Below are positions 1-11,357 of a stretch of 64,000 bases of DNA, piece by piece; position 1 is the first letter of the stretch; each line of letters begins with the position of its first letter. The translations under genes and the position numbers were made by a program. The DNA comes from Desulfococcus multivorans (lineage in GTDB: Bacteria; Desulfobacterota; Desulfobacteria; Desulfobacterales; Desulfococcaceae), in assembly GCF_001854245.1 (NCBI RefSeq), contig NZ_CP015381.1, positions 3,693,001 to 3,757,000 of the forward strand, written 5' to 3'. The notes under the pieces are model-generated. The model was not told where the DNA came from. It saw nothing but the letters and a program-made list of their open reading frames with translations, and did not search any database.

Positions 1-992
1 ACCCGAATGTCTTTCAGGCTCCTGAAATGGTCCTTCAACAATCTGATGATCTGATCGGGCTGGGTCCGGTTGACCGTTACGGCCCCGTCGAGGAGGGTCA
101 TGGGCTGCCCCAGACGGCGGCCGTGAGCGATCAGGGCCTTGACGTCCTTTGGGAAACAGCTCCCGCCGAATCCGCATCCCGCCTCCAGATAGGTGGTGAA
201 CCCGGGAACGACCCGGCTGCCGTCGGGAAGAATCGGGGAAAGCCGCTTGTCAAGGTGGACGCCCCGCATCACATCCACCACGTCGACACCCCCCAATGCA
301 GAACATAAATTTCCGATTTCATTTGAAAAAGATATCATCGTCGCCAGAAGCGAATTGGCGGTGTACTTGATCATCTCCGCGGTTTTACAGGTGGTCCGGA
401 TCTTGTCGACGCCGTCGAACGGGCGATAGAGCAGATCGAGGCATTCAATACTCCGGTCGTCGATACCGCCCATGACGATTCGATCAGGGTTCATGAAGTC
501 GGCCACGGCGTCGCCCTCCCTCAGGAATTCGGGATTCATGCCCAGGCCGAAGGCCTCCCCGGCACGTTTTCCGGAAGCCGCCTCCAGGCCGCGACGGACG
601 GTTTCGTCGGTCGTCCCCGGCACCACCGTACTCTTGACCACCACCACGTGATACCCGGACTTCTCGCGGAGGACCGCACCGATCTCCCTTGCGGCCGCCT
701 TGATTTGAGAGAGGTCGATCTCTTCTCCGTCAAAGGGCGTCCCCACGGCGATGATGGACAGCTCGGATCCGTGTACGGCGTCCGCGAGGTCCGTGGTCGC
801 CCTGAGGTTCCCCCCGATATTGCGCTGCAACAGCGCATCGAGCCCCCGTTCGTAAATCGGCGAAATCCCGGCGTTGATCCGGGCGATCTTGTCGGCATCC
901 ATGTCCACGCAGACGACGCGATGCCCCTTCTCGGCCAGGCATACGCCCGACACAAGGCCGACATACCCCGTACCGATAATGGAAACGTTCAT
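1..992 (-). CDS. ugd: UDP-glucose 6-dehydrogenase, 3' end beyond left edge
   Basis: Oxidises UDP-glucose to UDP-glucuronate with two NAD+, in the cytoplasm, for surface polysaccharide synthesis. About 330 codons are present; the C-terminal part lies outside the window. The N-terminus has the Rossmann motif GTGYVGLVSG. The catalytic segment GFGGSCFPKDV, with its nucleophilic Cys near residue 279, is clear and is preceded by the family's substrate-binding helices. The ATG shares one base with the TGA of the upstream gene (TGATG), so the two are probably translationally coupled. A GDP-mannose dehydrogenase is the main alternative because the family is shared. The neighbouring SDR, which resembles UDP-glucuronate decarboxylase, favours UDP-glucose as substrate. 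Confidence 0.9.
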   Translation of the reverse strand, partial: MNVSIIGTGYVGLVSGVCLAEKGHRVVCVDMDADKIARINAGISPIYERGLDALLQRNIGGNLRATTDLADAVHGSELSIIAVGTPFDGEEIDLSQIKAAAREIGAVLREKSGYHVVVVKSTVVPGTTDETVRRGLEAASGKRAGEAFGLGMNPEFLREGDAVADFMNPDRIVMGGIDDRSIECLDLLYRPFDGVDKIRTTCKTAEMIKYTANSLLATMISFSNEIGNLCSALGGVDVVDVMRGVHLDKRLSPILPDGSRVVPGFTTYLEAGCGFGGSCFPKDVKALIAHGRRLGQPMTLLDGAVTVNRTQPDQIIRLLKDHFRSLKDIR

Positions 993-2122
993 CAGGCATC
1001 CTCCCCGTTCCGGTTGTCGCCGTACCAGATCAACATCCGCCGCAATCCCTCCTCCAGCTCGATTCCCGGAGAATATCCCACCTCCGCGCGGGCCTTTTCA
1101 ATGATGGGGCACCGCCGATTCGGGTTGTCGGTCAGATAACTCTCGTCTCCGCTTTGGCGGCGGACCACCCGACCCGGGTAGCCGAAGAGGTCGCGTCCCA
1201 ACCCGACCACCTTCTCGGCCAACTCCCGCATGGAAATCTCGGGGGTGGAGACACCGATATTATAGGCCTCCCCGGGGCGACCGTGGACCAGTACCCTGAA
1301 ATAACCCATGACGGCGTCCGCCACATAACAGAAGGTCCGGGTGGGGGAACCGTCCGACAGGAGGACGATGTCCTCCCCATTCAAAATGTTCCGCGCAAAA
1401 TCCGGCAGAACACGACGGTCCGTGATCTTGAGGCCCGGTCCGTAATTGTTGAAAGGTCGGACAATCTTGATCGGAAGGCCGTATTGCCGGGCGAAGTTGA
1501 CCGACAACGTCTCTCCGAACCGTTTGGACTCGTCGTAACAGGCTCGCGGCCCGGTGCAGGAGACCTCACCGGGATACGTTTCGTCGGTCGGAATACGATG
1601 GGGCGGGGGATCGCCGTATATCTCGCTGCTGGAGAAAAAGAGGAACCCCTCCACCGCTTTTTCCGCGGGTTGGCGCCGGCAATACTCCAGAAGCCGCCTG
1701 AGGCCGTTGACGTTGGCGTCCATGGTTTCGATGGGATGCTTTCGGTAGTATATCGGCGACGCGATGGACGCGGCGTGAATGATATACTGGAAATCGGGCA
1801 TCGCATCCGGCAGGGGACCCGTAATGTCGTGCCGGACCAGGGTCAGGTCCGGATTTCCCGACAATGCCTTCAACCATTGGGGAACCCCGCGAATGTAATT
1901 GTCATATACCGTGAGCCGGATTCGCCGATCCGCCGGGACGTCGCCGTTCCGGGACAGAATGGCCTGAACCAGATAGTAGCCCAGAAAGCCGGCCCCTCCG
2001 GTGACGAGGACCGCTTTCCCCGCCAGTTTATCGAATGCCGCTTCGGCGCCCGTTCTGATATAGGCGAGATCCCGGGAAACGACGTCGTGAGCGCTATTCA
2101 GGTTTTCCATCGGCGTCACCAT
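992..2122 (-). CDS. NAD-dependent epimerase/dehydratase (UDP-glucuronate decarboxylase-like SDR)
   Basis: An extended short-chain dehydrogenase acting on a nucleotide sugar. The Rossmann motif TGGAGFLG lies near the N-terminus, the catalytic YxxxK is in [11 protein letters not shown], and the substrate-loop segment RPFNNYGPG follows, as in UDP-glucuronate decarboxylases and dTDP-glucose dehydratases. It starts inside the end of the upstream cytidylyltransferase gene (ATGGTGA overlap). A second ATG at 2110, just past that stop, is equally possible; neither has an ideal ribosome-binding site. Next to UDP-glucose dehydrogenase, the simplest role is converting UDP-glucuronate to UDP-xylose or a 4-keto sugar. 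Next to the CDP-glucose synthase, a CDP-sugar role is also possible. The exact substrate cannot be read from sequence. Confidence 0.8.
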
Positions 2123-2889
2123 ACCTTCCACGGCGCACGGCCGGAAGTCCACATTTCCTCCAGGACCATCTTGTCCCGCAGGGTATCCATCGGCTGCCAG
2201 AATCCCTTGTGGCGAAAGGCGGTCAGCTCGCCGTTCTCGGCCAGCCTTTCCATGGGCTGCCGCTCCCAGACGGTGTCGTCTCCCTCGATATACTCTACAG
2301 CCCCGGGCTCCAGCACAAAAAAGCCGCCGTTCACCCAGGCGCCGTCTCCCTGGGGTTTTTCGCGAAACGCCGCGATCCGGTCCTGTCCATGGCTCAGCTT
2401 GAAGGCCCCGAATCGGCCCGGCGGCTGAACCGCGGTCAGGGTGGCCAGCGTCTTGCGGGACTTGTGGAATGCGATCAAAGCGCGGATATCCAGGTCGGTC
2501 AGCCCGTCGCCGTAGGTGAAACAGAAGGTCTCGTCGCCGATATAGTCCTTCACGCGCCTGAGCCGACCGCCCGTCATGGTGTTCTCGCCCGTGTCCACCA
2601 GCGTGACCTGCCAGGGCTCGGCCGCGGTCCTGTGAACATGCATGCGGTTCTGGGACATGTCAAAGGTGACATCGGAGGAATGGAGAAAATAGTTGGCAAA
2701 ATACTCCTTGATGCACAACCCCTTGTAACCGAGGCAGATGATGAATTCATCGATGCCGTAGAAGGAATAGATTTTCATGATGTGCCAGAGAATGGGTTTA
2801 TCCCCGATCTCCACCATAGGCTTGGGTTTGACGCCGGTTTCTTCGGAAAGACGGGTTCCGAAGCCGCCGGCCAGAATGACGACTTTCAT
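2116..2889 (-). CDS. rfbF: Glucose-1-phosphate cytidylyltransferase
   Basis: Makes CDP-glucose from CTP and glucose 1-phosphate, the first step to CDP-dideoxyhexoses of O-antigens. The 257-residue length equals the usual RfbF length. The N-terminus [18 protein letters not shown] is the nucleotidyltransferase signature, followed by [18 protein letters not shown], which binds sugar phosphate, and later by YGDGLTD, the metal-binding aspartate region. The ATG at 2889 has GAGG eight bases upstream; in-frame codons further upstream lack a ribosome-binding site and are not homologous. The usual partner, CDP-glucose 4,6-dehydratase (RfbG), is not recognisable in the window. Either the adjacent SDR serves this role or RfbG lies beyond the left edge. 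Confidence 0.9.
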
Positions 2890-3019
2890 GTAAGATCCTC
2901 TGTCCGTTCTCTTTCTGTTAGGGTCCGTGAAGTCCTTGACTGCGCACATCATGCGGCCGTCGGAACGGCCGCACGATCTTTCACCTGTCGACAGCGGGAA
3001 TCGCCCGCCCTTGCCATTC

Positions 3020-4432
3020 TCACATCGCACCGTTGCCGCGGAGAACGACGGGTATGGTTTTGATCAGAATCTTCAAATCCAGAAACAGGGACCATCTCTC
3101 GATGTAATAGAGATCGAGTTCGAGCCACTTGGAAAACGGCAGCTCACTGCGTCCGCTGATTTGCCACAGACAGGTGAGGCCCGGCTTCACACTGAATCGC
3201 TTGCGTTGAATGCCGCGGTCGAAGAGGTCGACATCCCTTACGGACATGGGTCTCGGTCCCACCAGGCTCATGCTTCCGGCCAGGACGTTGAAGAGCTGGG
3301 GCAGTTCATCCAGGCTCGTTCGGCGGATGAAGCGGCCGACAGGGGTCACCCGCGGATCATCGGCGATCTTGAATATAGGCCCTTCAGCTTCGTTCAAGTG
3401 TTCCAATTCCTTTAGTTTTTCTTCACTGCCCACATACATGGAACGGAACTTGATCATGTTGAAACGCCGTTTTTTGAGACCAATCCGCTCCTGGATGAAA
3501 AACACCGGTCCGGGAGAGTCGAATTTGATCGCCAGGGCGATGCATCCCATAAGGGGCAGGATCACCGGCAGCGACAGAACGACAAGGAAGACGTCGATCA
3601 ATCGTTTCAACGCCAGTTTATACTCGTCCAGGGCAACGGGCTCAAGGGTCAGGAGGGGAATGTTGTCGAGCTTCATGAGGCTCACGCGGGCCACCTCGAG
3701 GTCGTACAGATCGGCCATGATCCTGAGTTTGATGCCCTCTTCCTCGCAGGCATGGGCGATGGATTCGGCATCCCCTATCAAGGTTCGGGGAACGGCCAGG
3801 ATGACCTCGTCGACGACAAACCGCTTCAGAACGGCGCTGATATCCTCTATCGTGCCCAACAGCGGTCCACCCTGCACCTCGGCCCCGTCCCAGTCCGGAC
3901 GGGGATCGAGATATCCGACGATGTCGATGCCCCACTCCGATTTTTCCTGCAGCAGCCGGGACAGCTGGGCCGCTCGAGGTCCGGTCCCGATGATCAGCAC
4001 CTTTTGATAATTTTCGCCGCGCTTCAGGCTTCCGCGGAAATAGGCGACGATAACGAGGCGGTTTACGATGAGCAATACAAAAACGAGTCCCATGAAAATG
4101 ATCACGACCAGGCGGCTGACATACTCGATTTTCATGATAAAGATGATGCCGATCAGAGCCGTTATCGTCGCCGAAACGCTGATAAAAACCGACCACAGCA
4201 ATTTTGCCGCCGTCATTCGCCTCGGTGAGCAGTAGGCGCTGAAATAGGAGAGATGAAAGAGCATCAACGCCAGAATCATCGGCAGCAGCGAAAAGTGGAT
4301 CAACGCGTCCGACGACCCGTCCGTGAACACCTCGAACCGCAGATAATATGCCGTCGTGAAAGCGATGATCGTCGAAATGATGTCGAATATCAACAGGGTT
4401 CGGTCGAATTGTTTGGATTTCTCCTCAAACAT
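3020..4432 (-). CDS. Undecaprenyl-phosphate sugar phosphotransferase (polyprenyl glycosylphosphotransferase)
   Basis: Transfers the first sugar phosphate of a repeat unit to undecaprenyl phosphate at the inner membrane and so starts polysaccharide assembly. At 470 residues it has the WbaP/EpsE layout. Four to five membrane segments lie in roughly the first 140 residues, then a Rossmann-like CoA-binding-type region ([17 protein letters not shown]), a membrane hairpin, and the catalytic sugar-transferase domain from about residue 275. That domain shows [26 protein letters not shown] and VGPRPM, including the conserved catalytic DE pair. It is transcribed leftward into the sugar-nucleotide genes, consistent with one glycan cluster. 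The transferred sugar is unknown. Confidence 0.92.
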
Positions 4433-6221: not shown

Positions 6222-6758
6222 TCACCAATTCATCAATCTCCGCCGTACGATTGCAAAGCATCCGATAAGCCCCAGGCCCAGAATCGCCAGGGCACGTGGA
6301 CCGAGTCCGACGTTTTCGCCGACGTCGGGATCGGTTGCATAGGTCCAGATCCAGTCATTCCGGTGCGATCCGCCCGCGGTCGACCGGGATGCCGTCTCCC
6401 TGCCGATCGGACCGCCCTGAAGGCCGGACGAGGCTTCGAACCCGTCTTGTTCGCCCTGGAAGGCGTCTTCATTGTCAAAATCGAACACCTTGAACTCCAG
6501 GGGATTGATGCCGTAAGTCGCGAGACGGTAGCGGTCCCCGATGCCGTCATGGACCCTCTCTTCAACGGGATTTCCGGTGAAAGCCTCCAAGACCGTCGTG
6601 TCGTCGAGGCTCGATCCATCATCCCAACCCAGCGACGCCGTGAAGACGGCAGGGTTTTCCGGCATCACACCCGGATCATCACCATTGTCTGCAACCGCCT
6701 TGATCGTGAAGGTCAAAACCAGAAACGACATCACCCAGACCCGACAAATCCGCTTCAT
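6222..6758 (-). CDS. Secreted protein with PEP-CTERM-like C-terminal sorting tail
   Basis: This 178-residue protein has a signal peptide (MKRICRVWVMSFLVLTFTIK, then a cleavage-like AVA) and an acidic, glycine-rich middle. The C-terminus GPRALAILGLGLIGCFAIV followed by RRR is a hydrophobic span ending in basic residues. This is the layout of PEP-CTERM tails recognised by exosortase, although the canonical Pro-Glu-Pro is replaced by GLGP. The ATG at 6758 follows GGAGGAG. Such proteins are usually encoded near exopolysaccharide genes, as here. No exosortase or archaeosortase is present in the window, so sorting is inferred. The family of the mature domain was not recognised. Confidence 0.55.
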   Translation of the reverse strand: MKRICRVWVMSFLVLTFTIKAVADNGDDPGVMPENPAVFTASLGWDDGSSLDDTTVLEAFTGNPVEERVHDGIGDRYRLATYGINPLEFKVFDFDNEDAFQGEQDGFEASSGLQGGPIGRETASRSTAGGSHRNDWIWTYATDPDVGENVGLGPRALAILGLGLIGCFAIVRRRLMNW

Positions 6759-7289
6759 GACTCCTCCAGCACACCGTGACAATCCATAGTCGTGCCTAAA
6801 TATAAAAGTTAAATGAGACTATAATAACTATCCATTGTCAAGTGTCGAGTTTTGTCTATTCATAACGCGGCGACCGGAAATCCCTGTCGATCGATAACGA
6901 CGGACACCAAAGTCTCCGGTTTATTGACATGTTATGAAATGCCGCTGCCGCCGTCAACCCGGCAGCTCAGGATGCTCCGCCGGATAAAATTATTTACAAG
7001 CAAAATCGATACCAAGGACTCAAATGCTGTGCCGGGGCCTCCGATTTGATCGTTAACACCACAAAATGACGTGATTTTTTCCAGGTGAATACGATTTGTT
7101 ATGCCCTTTTAAAAAGAGCTCTTTTCGCTTTTTTTGGTCAAGGATGACAAAAAACGTCACGACCTTGACGGCCTGTCGGCGGGAAATGGAAAAGGGTCCG
7201 AACGGAGGGATCGCGCCTTCCGATCCCTCGGCAAACCGGAGGAATCGAAAGGCGACGGGATAAATGACGGGGGGATGGGGTTGTCGTGC
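6759..7289. other. Intergenic region without a supported gene
   Basis: About 530 bp, noticeably AT-rich. It contains the palindrome AAAAGAGCTCTTTT at 7112-7125 and a 9-bp hairpin at 7205-7229, listed separately. Upstream of the PEP-CTERM-like gene I looked for a sigma-54 promoter; the partial match has wrong spacing. No open frame here looks coding. Confidence 0.5.
7205..7229 (-). terminator. Hairpin downstream of malectin gene, possible terminator
   Basis: GAGGGATCG (7205-7213) pairs perfectly with CGATCCCTC (7221-7229) around a 7-nt loop. It lies about 60 bp beyond the stop of the leftward malectin gene. The RNA in that direction has only a short U-run some ten bases later, so termination may be weak or Rho-assisted. 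Confidence 0.35.
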
Positions 7290-8120
7290 TCAGATATTGG
7301 CTGAAACGAGGATCACTTCAATGGCCGATATCTTCCCGTTGTCAATCGCAGCGCCGAAGTCGATGTCAAGGCTGCCGTCGACGACCCGGACGTTGTTGAT
7401 GGTTTTGACCACGGCGGTTTTCGACCCCACCTCCCGAACGATGTCAAAATTATCCAGTGCAAACTGACGGTTTTCCACCTCGAGATCAAAAACCCGGGAG
7501 TTCACCGAGGAAAAATAGATCTCGGCAAAATGCAGTTTCACCGTATAGACGCCCGAGCTCACCGGCAGGCTGTACCCGAAGGTTTTCCCGAATCGCTCGG
7601 TCTGATAGAGAAGGTCGGCGGTCGTACCGGCGATGGACGCGGCGTTCCGATACGTCTTTGTCGATCCGCTGTAATAGCGATCGCCGTCCCAATCGACGCC
7701 GCCGGCGGTCACGGCAGGGCCGCCGGCATTGATCCGGTGGACCACGTCCGATGAGGCGGTGCCGCCGGAAACGGGAATGTAGGCGGCCACCTGATTTGAA
7801 AACCCGCTTTCTTTCCCGTCCGTGGTCAGCACGGTGGCTGCAAAATAATAATAGACACCCTCCTTCAGCCCTGAAAGGGTGCAGCTGGTGGTCTTGGCCA
7901 CACTGATGTTAGAGGCATAACTGGTCTTGGACGTACCGTAATATATTTTGTAACCTTTCAGATAAGGGCTCGTGTTCGCCGTCCAGCCAAGGGTTATATC
8001 GCCGGCATGCACCGAACCCGCACCCCAAACGCATCCCATCGCGATCAAAAGCCCGGCACACACACTGCGGGAAAACACCTTTCTCAAATCCGTTACAATC
8101 CACTCATAAAAATTTCTCAT
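7290..8120 (-). CDS. Secreted fibronectin type III-malectin domain protein
   Basis: This 276-residue protein has a signal peptide ending near SVHAGD, followed by a fibronectin type III domain (about residues 43-125, ITLGWTANTSP to SGFSNQVAAY). A malectin-type carbohydrate-binding domain fills about residues 140-275, with HRINAGGPAVTAGGVDW at its start and YTVKLHFAEIYFSS in the core. Malectin domains bind glucose-containing glycans, so a matrix or cell-wall binding role is inferred. The start at 8120 is chosen because AGGAG lies eight bases upstream; the ATG at 8126 is too close to it. It is a shorter paralogue of the next gene, with one malectin copy instead of three and no calcium repeats. 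Confidence 0.85.
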   Translation of the reverse strand: MRNFYEWIVTDLRKVFSRSVCAGLLIAMGCVWGAGSVHAGDITLGWTANTSPYLKGYKIYYGTSKTSYASNISVAKTTSCTLSGLKEGVYYYFAATVLTTDGKESGFSNQVAAYIPVSGGTASSDVVHRINAGGPAVTAGGVDWDGDRYYSGSTKTYRNAASIAGTTADLLYQTERFGKTFGYSLPVSSGVYTVKLHFAEIYFSSVNSRVFDLEVENRQFALDNFDIVREVGSKTAVVKTINNVRVVDGSLDIDFGAAIDNGKISAIEVILVSANI

Positions 8121-8492
8121 CGACATTTCTCCTGAAACTCAACCTTAAGGCAGTCTATTGGATGATGTACTCCTGTTTCGATTTCGGTATCTAACTGCCT
8201 GCAATTTCTGATTCTATATTCGAAGTAGACACAGATCCAATCAAATTTTCGAACGGTTTCCCAAAAATTCGATACGGCGACGACAACACCGTTTCTGTGA
8301 TTATTAAGGAACTCGGGCGCTCCAGGAACCTTTGATCGAGAAAATTCTCTACAATTTCCTAAAACGTGTATATTTAACGTGATTCCAATCTGTTAATTCG
8401 AATCACACTCACAGGTACGATAGCACGTTATAGGTTTCACGCTTCTTTTTCTGTTAACTATTACCATTCACGCAATTCTAAGGGTGAAATAC

Positions 8493-8666: not shown

Positions 8667-10760
8667 TTACAATCTGGCAGTGCCGTCAAAGCCGGTCATG
8701 ATCACCTCGATCGCCGATACCTTTCCATTGTCGACAAGGGCCTCGAAATCGATGTCGAGGCTGCCGTCGACGACCTGGATATTCTCGATCGTTTTGACGA
8801 AAGCGGCGTTGGGACCCGCCGCCGAGACGATATCGAGACCGTCGATCCGGCCCTGGCCGTCTTCCAGGTCGATATTGAATACACGCTTCCCGACCGATGA
8901 AAAATAGATCTCGGCAAAATGGAGATTGACGGTATAGGTGCCGGGGTCGACCGGGATAATGTAGCTGAACCGCTTCCCGTACCGTTCGCTCTGATACAGG
9001 CCATCAGCTGTGGTCCCCGCGATGGTTTGGGTCCGGGCATAGGTGCCGGTGGAACCGCTGTAATACCGGTCGGCCTCCCAGTCCGCACCGTCGAGGGTCA
9101 CGGCCTTGCCGCCGGTGTTGATGCGGTGAACCACCGTGTTGACCGGAATATCCGCCGCGTTTTCGGATGAGAGGATTTCGATGGCGGAGATCTTGGCGTT
9201 GTCGGCCAGGGCCGCAAAATCGATGTCGAGGCTGCCGTCGGTGACATTAACGTCCGCGATGGTCCTGACGAGGGCGCAGTCGGGTCCGGCCGCTGAAACA
9301 ATATCCATCTGAAACGAACCGGCTTGAGCGTCTTCCACGGAGACGTCGAAAATCCGTTTGCCGGCTGACGAGAAGTAGATCTCGGCAAAATGGAGTCTCA
9401 CCGTGTAGGTGCCGGCCGCCACCGGGAAATTGTAGCTGAATCGGCTGCCGTACCGCTCACTCTGATACACCGCGTCAGCCTGGGTTGCCCCGATGGCGGT
9501 CGTATTCCGATAGACCTTCGTGGCACCGTTGAAAAACCGGTCGGCTTCCCAGACCAACCCATCGGTCGTTACGGCAGGTCCGCCGGCATTGATGCGGTAA
9601 AGAGCTTCGCCTGCCGGGCTTTGATCTTCACCCGCCGATTCATCTGTTCTGGGATCCGTACCGTAGAGGTGAACCTCGTCCCCGTCGCTCACCCCGTCGC
9701 CGTCGGTGTCGGGGTTCTCGGGGTTGGTGCCGTAAATATGGGTTTCGTCACTGTCGGTAAGGCCGTCGCCGTCGGTATCCGTGACAACGGGAACTATCTT
9801 GAATACCTCGATGGCGGCGATCTTGGCATTGTCGGCCAGCGCTTCAAAGGCGATATCCAGGCTGCCGTCACTGACGTGGATGTCGTTTATCGATTTGACG
9901 CAAGCACGGTCGGCGCCGACCGTCGAGAAAATGTCCAGTTGAACCAATCGTGCCTGGGCGTTCTCCACGTCGACGTCGAAAATCCGTTTGCCGGCCGAGG
10001 AGAAATAGATCTCGGCAAAATGGAGTCTCACCGAATAGACCCCCGGCGTCGCCGGCAGGCTGTAGCTGAACCGCTTGCCGAATCGTTCGCTCTGGTACAG
10101 GGCCTCCGGGGCGGTGGATGCGATGGACTTTGCCTTGACATAGGTGTTGCTCGCACCGCCGTAAAAGCAATCCGCGTCCCAGGTCAGGCCGTCGGCCGTA
10201 ATCGCCGTACCGCCGGCGTTGATGCGGTAAATCGGCTCGGCAACCCAGTCGCCGTTGGGATCTCCGACGACATCGACGCGAGTGGGGTCCGTACCGTTGA
10301 CATGGATCTCATCGCCGTCGCTCACCCCGTCACCGTCCGTGTCGGCGTTGTCGGGATCCGTCCCGTAGATCTCGAGTTCGTCCGTGTCCGACACGCCGTC
10401 GCCGTCGGTGTCGGATACGGGAATCCGATGCTGGACCTCATTGGAGTAGCCGCTTTCAAGGCCGGATCCGTCATAGGCGGTGGCGGCAAAATAATAGGTC
10501 TTTTGTTCCTCGAGTCCGGATATGCTGCAGCTGAGGGTATTCCCGACGTTGAGGGTCTGGCGGTAATCGCCGCTTCCGGTGCCGTAATGGATCCTGTAAC
10601 CCGCCGCCTGGGTATTGGCGGGCGGATCCCAGGCCAGCACGACGTTTCCCGCATGGGCGACCTGGGTCAACATGAAAAAACTGATCAGAATACCGAGGGC
10701 AAAGCAGCCCGCGGATAAGACTTTAGGGTGTGAAGGGGCAGTAAAAACAAAGTATTTCAT
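8667..10760 (-). CDS. Secreted multi-domain protein: fibronectin III, calcium-type repeats, three malectin domains
   Basis: This 697-residue protein has a signal peptide (cleavage near QVAHAGN) and a fibronectin III domain at about residues 38-115. Two blocks of DTDGDGVSD-type calcium-binding repeats (thrombospondin type 3-like) lie at about 116-165 and 330-380. Malectin domains lie at about 175-325, 385-530 and 545-690. Each malectin copy has a YRINAGG or HRINTGG entry, YQSERYG or YQSERFG, and LHFAEIYFSS. It is probably a surface or matrix lectin binding the cell's own glucan-like polysaccharide. Translation starts eight bases after AAAGGAG. A c-di-GMP riboswitch lies in the leader, so expression should follow biofilm signalling. 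There is no C-terminal anchor, which suggests release or non-covalent attachment. Confidence 0.9.
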   Translation of the reverse strand: MKYFVFTAPSHPKVLSAGCFALGILISFFMLTQVAHAGNVVLAWDPPANTQAAGYRIHYGTGSGDYRQTLNVGNTLSCSISGLEEQKTYYFAATAYDGSGLESGYSNEVQHRIPVSDTDGDGVSDTDELEIYGTDPDNADTDGDGVSDGDEIHVNGTDPTRVDVVGDPNGDWVAEPIYRINAGGTAITADGLTWDADCFYGGASNTYVKAKSIASTAPEALYQSERFGKRFSYSLPATPGVYSVRLHFAEIYFSSAGKRIFDVDVENAQARLVQLDIFSTVGADRACVKSINDIHVSDGSLDIAFEALADNAKIAAIEVFKIVPVVTDTDGDGLTDSDETHIYGTNPENPDTDGDGVSDGDEVHLYGTDPRTDESAGEDQSPAGEALYRINAGGPAVTTDGLVWEADRFFNGATKVYRNTTAIGATQADAVYQSERYGSRFSYNFPVAAGTYTVRLHFAEIYFSSAGKRIFDVSVEDAQAGSFQMDIVSAAGPDCALVRTIADVNVTDGSLDIDFAALADNAKISAIEILSSENAADIPVNTVVHRINTGGKAVTLDGADWEADRYYSGSTGTYARTQTIAGTTADGLYQSERYGKRFSYIIPVDPGTYTVNLHFAEIYFSSVGKRVFNIDLEDGQGRIDGLDIVSAAGPNAAFVKTIENIQVVDGSLDIDFEALVDNGKVSAIEVIMTGFDGTARL

Positions 10761-10761
10761 C

Positions 10762-10792
10762 GCAACATCTCCTTTGATTCTGTAGATGTCGC
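10762..10792 (-). promoter_or_regulatory. Hairpin sequestering the ribosome-binding site
   Basis: In the leftward RNA, GCGACAUCU (complement of 10784-10792) pairs with AGAUGUUGC (complement of 10762-10770), a nine-pair stem with one G-U. The Shine-Dalgarno AAAGGAGA runs from the loop into the stem just before the ATG at 10760. This could be the expression platform of the riboswitch at 10831-10915, with translational control. Inferred from base pairing only. Confidence 0.5.
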
Positions 10793-10830
10793 AAGGTTAC
10801 AGCGGAGATGAAGCCGTAGGCGGGCTTTAT

Positions 10831-10915
10831 CAAACCGGCAACCCTGCTACCATATCCCGATGATTCGGGGTTTAGGCCAGTGGCTTTGCGTCCCACCCTT
10901 TCGGATGGTTTGCCT
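10831..10915 (-). promoter_or_regulatory. Cyclic-di-GMP-I (GEMM) riboswitch
   Basis: The leftward RNA has the GEMM-I conserved parts in order: GGCAAACC; a stem closed by a GAAA tetraloop (CCGAAAGG); the invariant GGGACGCAAAGCC; GGCCTAAACC with a later GATATGG that together form the tetraloop receptor; and closing GGTAGC and GGGTTGCCG. Every universally conserved block I know for this class is present. It lies 70 bases upstream of the malectin gene start. c-di-GMP binding should change folding of the downstream hairpin that contains the Shine-Dalgarno site. Whether the switch is ON or OFF is not resolved. Confidence 0.92.
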
Positions 10916-11357
10916 TTTTCGTGTTTGTTGTGCATCCCGGGACGACGGTGTCGCTGCAAAACGTCCGGGAAGGGCTGAAGCGGTGTCGAAATCAGGATCT
11001 TATATTGACCTCCTTGGTGATTCGGGTTTTTTCAAAATGCCGCCGTGACTTGGGCGGGTCTGTTGGCGATCGCCGTCGTTTACCGGACTCTATACCCCTG
11101 GAGGCGCCCGCCATTCAATCGACTATTGAAACCCATAAATGTGGATTATTTCGCAAGCCTCTCCATCAGGGTGAAAAAATCGCTTTTGGGGAGGGCATAA
11201 TCCCGGTCCGGGACGGTCACTGGAAGGGTTGGGGTTGACAAGGATGGGGGAATAAGGTTTTAGGGTGTTAAGGTTTTAAGGTTTATTGAATTCAGTGGGG
11301 GTTCAGGATGGTGAGGGTGGGTGTTCGGAATGCCGGAAACGGCGGGGAGGAGCTGAG
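10916..11357. other. Intergenic region between divergent genes
   Basis: Holds the upstream leader or promoter of the riboswitch transcript (leftward) and of the PHP phosphatase gene (rightward). A TATAAG (-10-like on the minus strand, about 11000-11005) is visible, but no convincing -35. An 8-bp-period array lies at 11248-11284. No gene is supported. Confidence 0.4.
11248..11284. repeat. Short 8-bp-period array (TTTTAGGG/TGTTAAGG/TTTTAAGG)
   Basis: Consecutive octamers read GTTTTAGG, GTGTTAAG, GTTTTAAG, GTTTATTG. On the opposite strand each unit carries TAA at the same phase. This is the first of many arrays with this period in the window. Confidence 0.6.

Follow-up and report, generated by a model that had tools for sequence, protein, structure and literature searches.

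The Vc2 riboswitch of Vibrio cholerae is described as a translational OFF switch (PMC9262584), and the cGAMP-responsive pilM leader of Geobacter metallireducens has, according to the same source, a layout in which a terminator uses the 3' strand of the aptamer, and is an ON switch (PMC9262584). The aptamer fold of Cd1 of Clostridioides difficile (OFF) and of pilM (cGAMP, ON) is common with that of the aptamer analyzed here, but Cd1 and pilM act on transcription, whereas our leader has no terminator; the use of the aptamer 3' strand by the pilM terminator recurs in four other leaders of the genome studied here. In Geobacter, GEMM control has been reported for fn3 surface proteins of G. bemidjiensis (Gbem_1796, Gbem_1798 and Gbem_1799; PMC2996986) and for the fn3 protein KN400_1971 (PMC13194489). 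These resemble our locus in having a GEMM riboswitch before the gene of a predicted surface protein with fn3, a likeness drawn from the description of the targets, and differ in that the available parts of those reports mention no malectin for the proteins. CbpA of Bacillus thuringiensis, a collagen-binding adhesin under a c-di-GMP-I riboswitch (PMC7423583), is likewise a surface binding protein with the same class of riboswitch, but as described there its switch is a transcriptional ON switch, and the protein is a cell-wall-anchored one of a Gram-positive whose domains are unrelated to those of ours. The initial annotation of this DNA had remarked that malectin proteins are rarely described as riboswitch targets, and our searches of the open-licence literature agree with it, having found no relevant paper on malectin as a riboswitch or c-di-GMP target and none that joins malectin domain, bacteria, biofilm and secreted. 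GEMM-I control of fn3 surface proteins is a wider and partly known habit; the malectin target type was not found described.

The stretch of DNA analyzed here, which we call the window, is 64 kb of the Desulfococcus multivorans genome. It contains what is probably a c-di-GMP-I riboswitch controlling the translation of a secreted fn3-TSP3-malectin protein, in which competition by a helix that we call Z would set an OFF direction, in an arrangement that recurs in related bacteria. The features of the locus, in the direction of transcription and in window coordinates, are as follows:

10834-10924, minus: c-di-GMP-I (GEMM-I) aptamer (Rfam RF01051); 10914 and 10838 are the positions that we take to be the equivalents of Vc2 G20 and C92, respectively
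10840-10847, minus: aptamer 3' strand GCAGGGUU, which can pair with 10791-10798 (helix Z)
10811-10827, minus: small platform hairpin AAGCC/GGCUU, 5 pairs kept in three of three leaders
10804-10810, minus: anti-Shine-Dalgarno strand CAUCUCC (helix X), exact complement of 10766-10772, invariant in three of three leaders
10791-10798, minus: switching strand AACCUUGC, helix Z partner of 10840-10847
10784-10794, minus: second closing strand UUGCGACAUCU (helix Y), which can pair with AGAUGUUGCGA over the Shine-Dalgarno region and the start codon
10766-10772, minus: Shine-Dalgarno region GGAGAUG, 5 nt before the ATG, conserved in three of three leaders
8667-10760, minus: 697-aa gene with ATG start (ORF, Pfam): signal peptide, fn3, four TSP3 repeats, three malectins
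7290-8126, minus: 278-aa fn3-malectin gene, downstream of the 697-aa gene after a gap of 540 nt, with no aptamer of its own found

The aptamer matches the Rfam covariance model over its full length (1-87 of 87) with 84.8 bits and an E of 2.7e-15 (the gathering score of RF01051 is 35 bits), and it scores 82.9 bits against our own model R2, whose 35 sequences include that of the window itself. By sequence and structure it is a certain member of this known riboswitch class. It lies in the 5' leader of the 697-aa gene, 73 nt from the ATG and on the same strand; no further Rfam element reached its gathering score in the 64 kb window, and no second aptamer was found in or near the leader. The initial annotation had seen the GEMM-I core blocks in the leader of the malectin gene and proposed a covariance-model search, with the above outcome; its interval, 10831-10915, covers most of the aptamer and misses the nine 5' bases (10916-10924), and it named no strand, which is the minus strand, that of the malectin gene. 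In the alignment the G20 equivalent is G and the C92 equivalent is C, the letters of the c-di-GMP type, and for this reason we expect the ligand to be c-di-GMP. That the gene encodes three malectins, as had also been said, is borne out by Pfam: Malectin (PF11721) matches three stretches of the 697-aa protein with 309.7 bits, above the cut-off, besides one fn3 and four TSP3 repeats. The signal peptide was read by eye, and carbohydrate binding and a role as a "matrix protein" are suggested by the domains. Used as the sole query against our contig collection, the 697-aa protein found no match. The two glycan clusters reported for the window were looked at in part, with genes for a sugar transferase, an epimerase and a nucleotidyltransferase at 992-4432.

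The sister species (G001) carries the window-type leader twice, at loci C343 and C142, and all 20 pairs of the model are kept in the window leader and in these two. Helix Z would compete with the aptamer and with helix Y, the second closing helix, alike; it has eight pairs kept in all three leaders of the genus with one U-A to C-G double change, a comparison of three related sequences in which most pairs are invariant. The closing pair of the small platform hairpin varies among the three (C-G, A-U or G-U). In the window leader the best pairing of spacer and Shine-Dalgarno region (-16.3) was matched in 9 of 1000 shuffles, and the six central pairs of helix Y have pair probabilities of 0.72-0.97 when this leader is free. 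Neither a terminator-like nor a sigma-70-like site was found in 10600-11250. Because leaders of the fn3 type are without terminators (below) and an anti-Shine-Dalgarno strand lies 3' of the aptamer, the platform most likely acts on translation by sequestering the Shine-Dalgarno region. A search for the platform sequence outside the genus, with model R1 over 291 genomes of the order, returned the model's own three leaders and, weakly, one site in G185 (24 bits, E 0.0053), so the platform sequence is genus-level and only its layout is wider; the G185 site pointed to another GEMM-I leader, again ahead of a gene for an fn3-type protein.

When ligand is absent, helix Z would take up the aptamer 3' strand and so shorten or block the helices that close the Shine-Dalgarno region. 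When c-di-GMP is bound, the 3' strand would be kept in the aptamer, the full closing helix could form, and translation would drop (OFF, like Vc2). In these terms the window element resembles Vc2 and RF01051 in matching the whole model and in its predicted translational platform and modelled OFF direction, and differs in its target, a secreted fn3-malectin protein, and in a platform sequence that is confined to the genus. The direction is the weakest step of this reading, and we lean towards OFF from a computation, with shuffled spacers as the control, of how much energy it takes to open the ribosome binding site, once with the RNA free and once with the aptamer pairs imposed. In the window leader this cost is 6.6 kcal/mol free and 11.6 kcal/mol with the aptamer, and the difference of 5.0 was matched by 7 of 300 shuffles. 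The bound-free differences in the other leaders modelled are 5.0 kcal/mol for G034 (6/300 shuffles as high; 0.2 when 30 extra coding bases are included), 4.7 for G185 (0/300), 7.9 for G215 (0/200), 2.3 for G306 (30/200), 1.0 for C142 (121/300) and 0.1 for C343 (140/300). The sign is the same in seven of seven leaders and the size unexceptional in three of them (C343, C142 and G306), and forcing the aptamer pairs pushes the difference upward in some shuffle sets. The opening cost with the aptamer formed was reached by 13/300, 2/300, 0/300, 1/300 and 0/300 shuffles in five leaders and by 1/200 in G215; that of G306 is unexceptional (81/200).

The whole genome (G000; 4.46 Mb, one contig) contains six GEMM-I aptamers and encodes nine GGDEF domains. 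In two of them the base equivalent to G20 is A, so some of the six may respond to cGAMP:

G000:C1:4075502-4075596 (L019): A at the G20 equivalent; before a phosphoribosyltransferase-like gene
G000:C1:503524-503598 (L021): A at the G20 equivalent; GCC/ACGG type

Four leaders (L018, L020, L021 and L022) have terminator-like hairpins built from the aptamer's own 3' strand and look like ON switches.

These other leaders bear on how the window element is to be read. If the same riboswitch had ON polarity, c-di-GMP would open the Shine-Dalgarno region and raise translation of the lectin, as expected of a biofilm protein; the four ON-type terminator leaders would then be in company with it, as would CbpA, which is described as turned on by its c-di-GMP-I riboswitch (PMC7423583), and the two states of C343 and C142 barely differ in the model. 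We nevertheless think this polarity unlikely, given that with the aptamer formed the site is at least as closed in all seven modelled leaders, and that the closure goes beyond nearly all shuffles in four of the seven (7/300, 6/300, 0/300 and 0/200). A preference of the aptamer for another cyclic dinucleotide, 3',3'-cGAMP, over c-di-GMP has a precedent in the GEMM-Ib members of Geobacter that are reported to bind cGAMP (PMC8835794, PMC6456294) and is in keeping with the A at the G20 position in two of the six leaders of the genome. It is improbable for the window aptamer, which has G there and scores near the c-di-GMP-I consensus, even if this base is described as a selectivity factor among cyclic dinucleotides and no hard filter (PMC9262584).

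Least probable of all is that we are looking at a relic, in which the aptamer, though conserved, no longer functions and the gene behind it is translated constitutively. In a related MAG the aptamer ahead of a malectin gene is degenerate, which indicates that such decay occurs, but the near-consensus score of the window aptamer, the conservation of aptamer and platform in three copies with compensatory changes, and a closing helix beyond that of shuffles all argue against it here. We retain, as a probable reading, translational control by c-di-GMP in the OFF direction, with the direction held less firmly than the rest.

Among relatives, an fn3 of the window type lies near the protein start behind 7 of 100 GEMM-I leaders (95 with an ORF), a census taken from at least about 150 matches listed, with most of G005, tandem copies and one leader at a contig end left out. 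In ten genomes GEMM-I stands just upstream of 9 of 27 fn3-type matches (37 GEMM-I matches there in all), a biased rate in that these genomes were partly picked for having fn3 leaders. The seven census leaders and four found through malectin or R1 make up a set of 11 (alignment A3 excludes L040), and our own scan placed terminator-like sites in none of these 11 against 63 of 93 other GEMM-I leaders (Fisher p 1.4e-5, with leaders that are not independent). In seven of the 11, no more than 9 of 1000 shuffles gave an equally good duplex of spacer and Shine-Dalgarno region; in the other four the duplex is unexceptional (65, 142, 147 and 99 of 1000), and a p value combined over the 11 is to be read with reserve, as they are not independent. 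Other families of the order also have this arrangement ahead of genes for signal peptide-fn3 proteins, whose fn3 is followed by malectin or by other domains of a binding type. That a probably translational platform marks the fn3 leaders is a new point.

The loci of the sister species show what may happen behind such a leader. The C343 leader is 85.8% identical to that of the window over 176 nt, and the PHP-domain gene upstream of it has 67% identity to its counterpart in the window; on these grounds C343 is taken as the locus orthologous to ours, though another reading frame intervenes. The proteins have a signal peptide and fn3 in common, with about 40% identity over 123 aa, and that of C343 combines an fn3 match slightly under the cut-off with a MopE-type metal-binding motif. 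The C142 protein has an fn3, a sub-cut-off TSP3 repeat and two Golvesin-C domains. Malectin found no match in the G001 draft assembly (550 contigs); the C343 protein is cut at a contig end with 353 aa seen, so that a distal malectin is excluded within the remaining assembly only. Since the sister species keeps leader and fn3 with no malectin match, the riboswitch appears to be linked to the fn3 module, and binding domains would be exchangeable; this apparent exchange of distal domains behind a conserved leader is a second new point. The tie between lectin and biofilm messenger proposed by the initial annotation thus stands as far as a c-di-GMP-I riboswitch before a malectin gene is concerned, with the linked unit being signal peptide-fn3, and if the switch is OFF, this tie could amount to repression. 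We put forward only tentatively the broader idea that in this order a translational GEMM-I leader, signal peptide and fn3 form a cassette in which the distal domain, be it malectin, Golvesin-C, H-type lectin, PKD or another, is swapped without loss of the c-di-GMP control, even at a single locus that is orthologous between sister species, and that the lectin leaders are OFF where the other GEMM-I leaders of the genome are ON. If this were true, a rise in c-di-GMP would replace one set of surface proteins by another.

Malectin is encoded by 5 of 389 genomes of the class, in 11 genes, and G000 has ten malectin domains in four genes. Six of the 11 have an N-terminal fn3 of the window type. A directly adjacent GEMM-I above the Rfam cut-off is present in G000 (the window), G215 (65.7 bits) and G306 (61.4 bits), which belong to three families, and G044 has a degenerate one upstream of a malectin gene (22 bits with Rfam, cut-off 35; 26.6 bits with R2). 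All four of these genes, the one with the degenerate aptamer included, encode signal peptide-fn3-malectin proteins. The recurrence of the malectin pairing in three families, or four with the degenerate case, is another of the new points. No GEMM-I was found at the 278-aa window neighbour or at the 574-aa gene of G215, both fn3-malectin genes, and for the second malectin gene of G044 the stretch examined does not reach the 5' end. Malectin in general was considered as a GEMM-I target and rejected: none of 77 malectin loci of other bacteria matches R2 (one of them, L070, is presumably from the same contig as G044:C5 and stops short of the degenerate aptamer stretch).

These findings extend the targets of c-di-GMP riboswitches to malectin-type proteins, and recurrence in several families makes an accident of one genome unlikely; it points to a repeated use of this riboswitch to link surface lectins with the biofilm signal. 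A leader that is conserved while the protein behind it changes, together with two predicted polarities of one aptamer class in a single genome, offers a simple test system, and if OFF holds it would run counter to the usual assumption that surface adhesins go up with c-di-GMP.

Several further observations concern these genomes. The G044 leader (L055:4943-5015, minus), which precedes a three-malectin gene, contains a perfect anti-Shine-Dalgarno helix of 12 bp, and its aptamer may be decayed or, alternatively, altered in ligand. Among the five malectin genes without an N-terminal fn3, GEMM-I is upstream only of the ~1267-aa three-malectin gene of G000; this aptamer, L018 (G000:C1:3883388-3883468, minus), is a riboswitch of the c-di-GMP-I-GGC type (RF03167), which belongs to the same clan as the plain c-di-GMP-I type of the window but differs from it. 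In the roughly 300 nt that follow L018, and still ahead of the gene, there are a reading frame of 13 codons, with a Shine-Dalgarno-like site of its own, and a second, strong terminator-like hairpin (-28.2 kcal/mol), so direct GEMM-I control of the gene was not counted; this stretch might encode a leader peptide or yield a short free RNA. A gene for a 2285-aa secreted-looking protein with three malectins (L017:5991-12848, minus; G000:C1:3682991-3689848) lies some 14 kb from the 697-aa gene and is without a GEMM-I leader. Within the window, a 186-aa protein (6222-6782, minus) with no Pfam match has, by eye, a sorting-signal-like C terminus, a hydrophobic stretch followed by arginines. Finally, tandem arrays of at least four GEMM-I aptamers are present in related genomes, at G043:C102:7438-7794, G014:C109:690-1206, G021:C75:11273-11672 and G130:C78:127168-127512.
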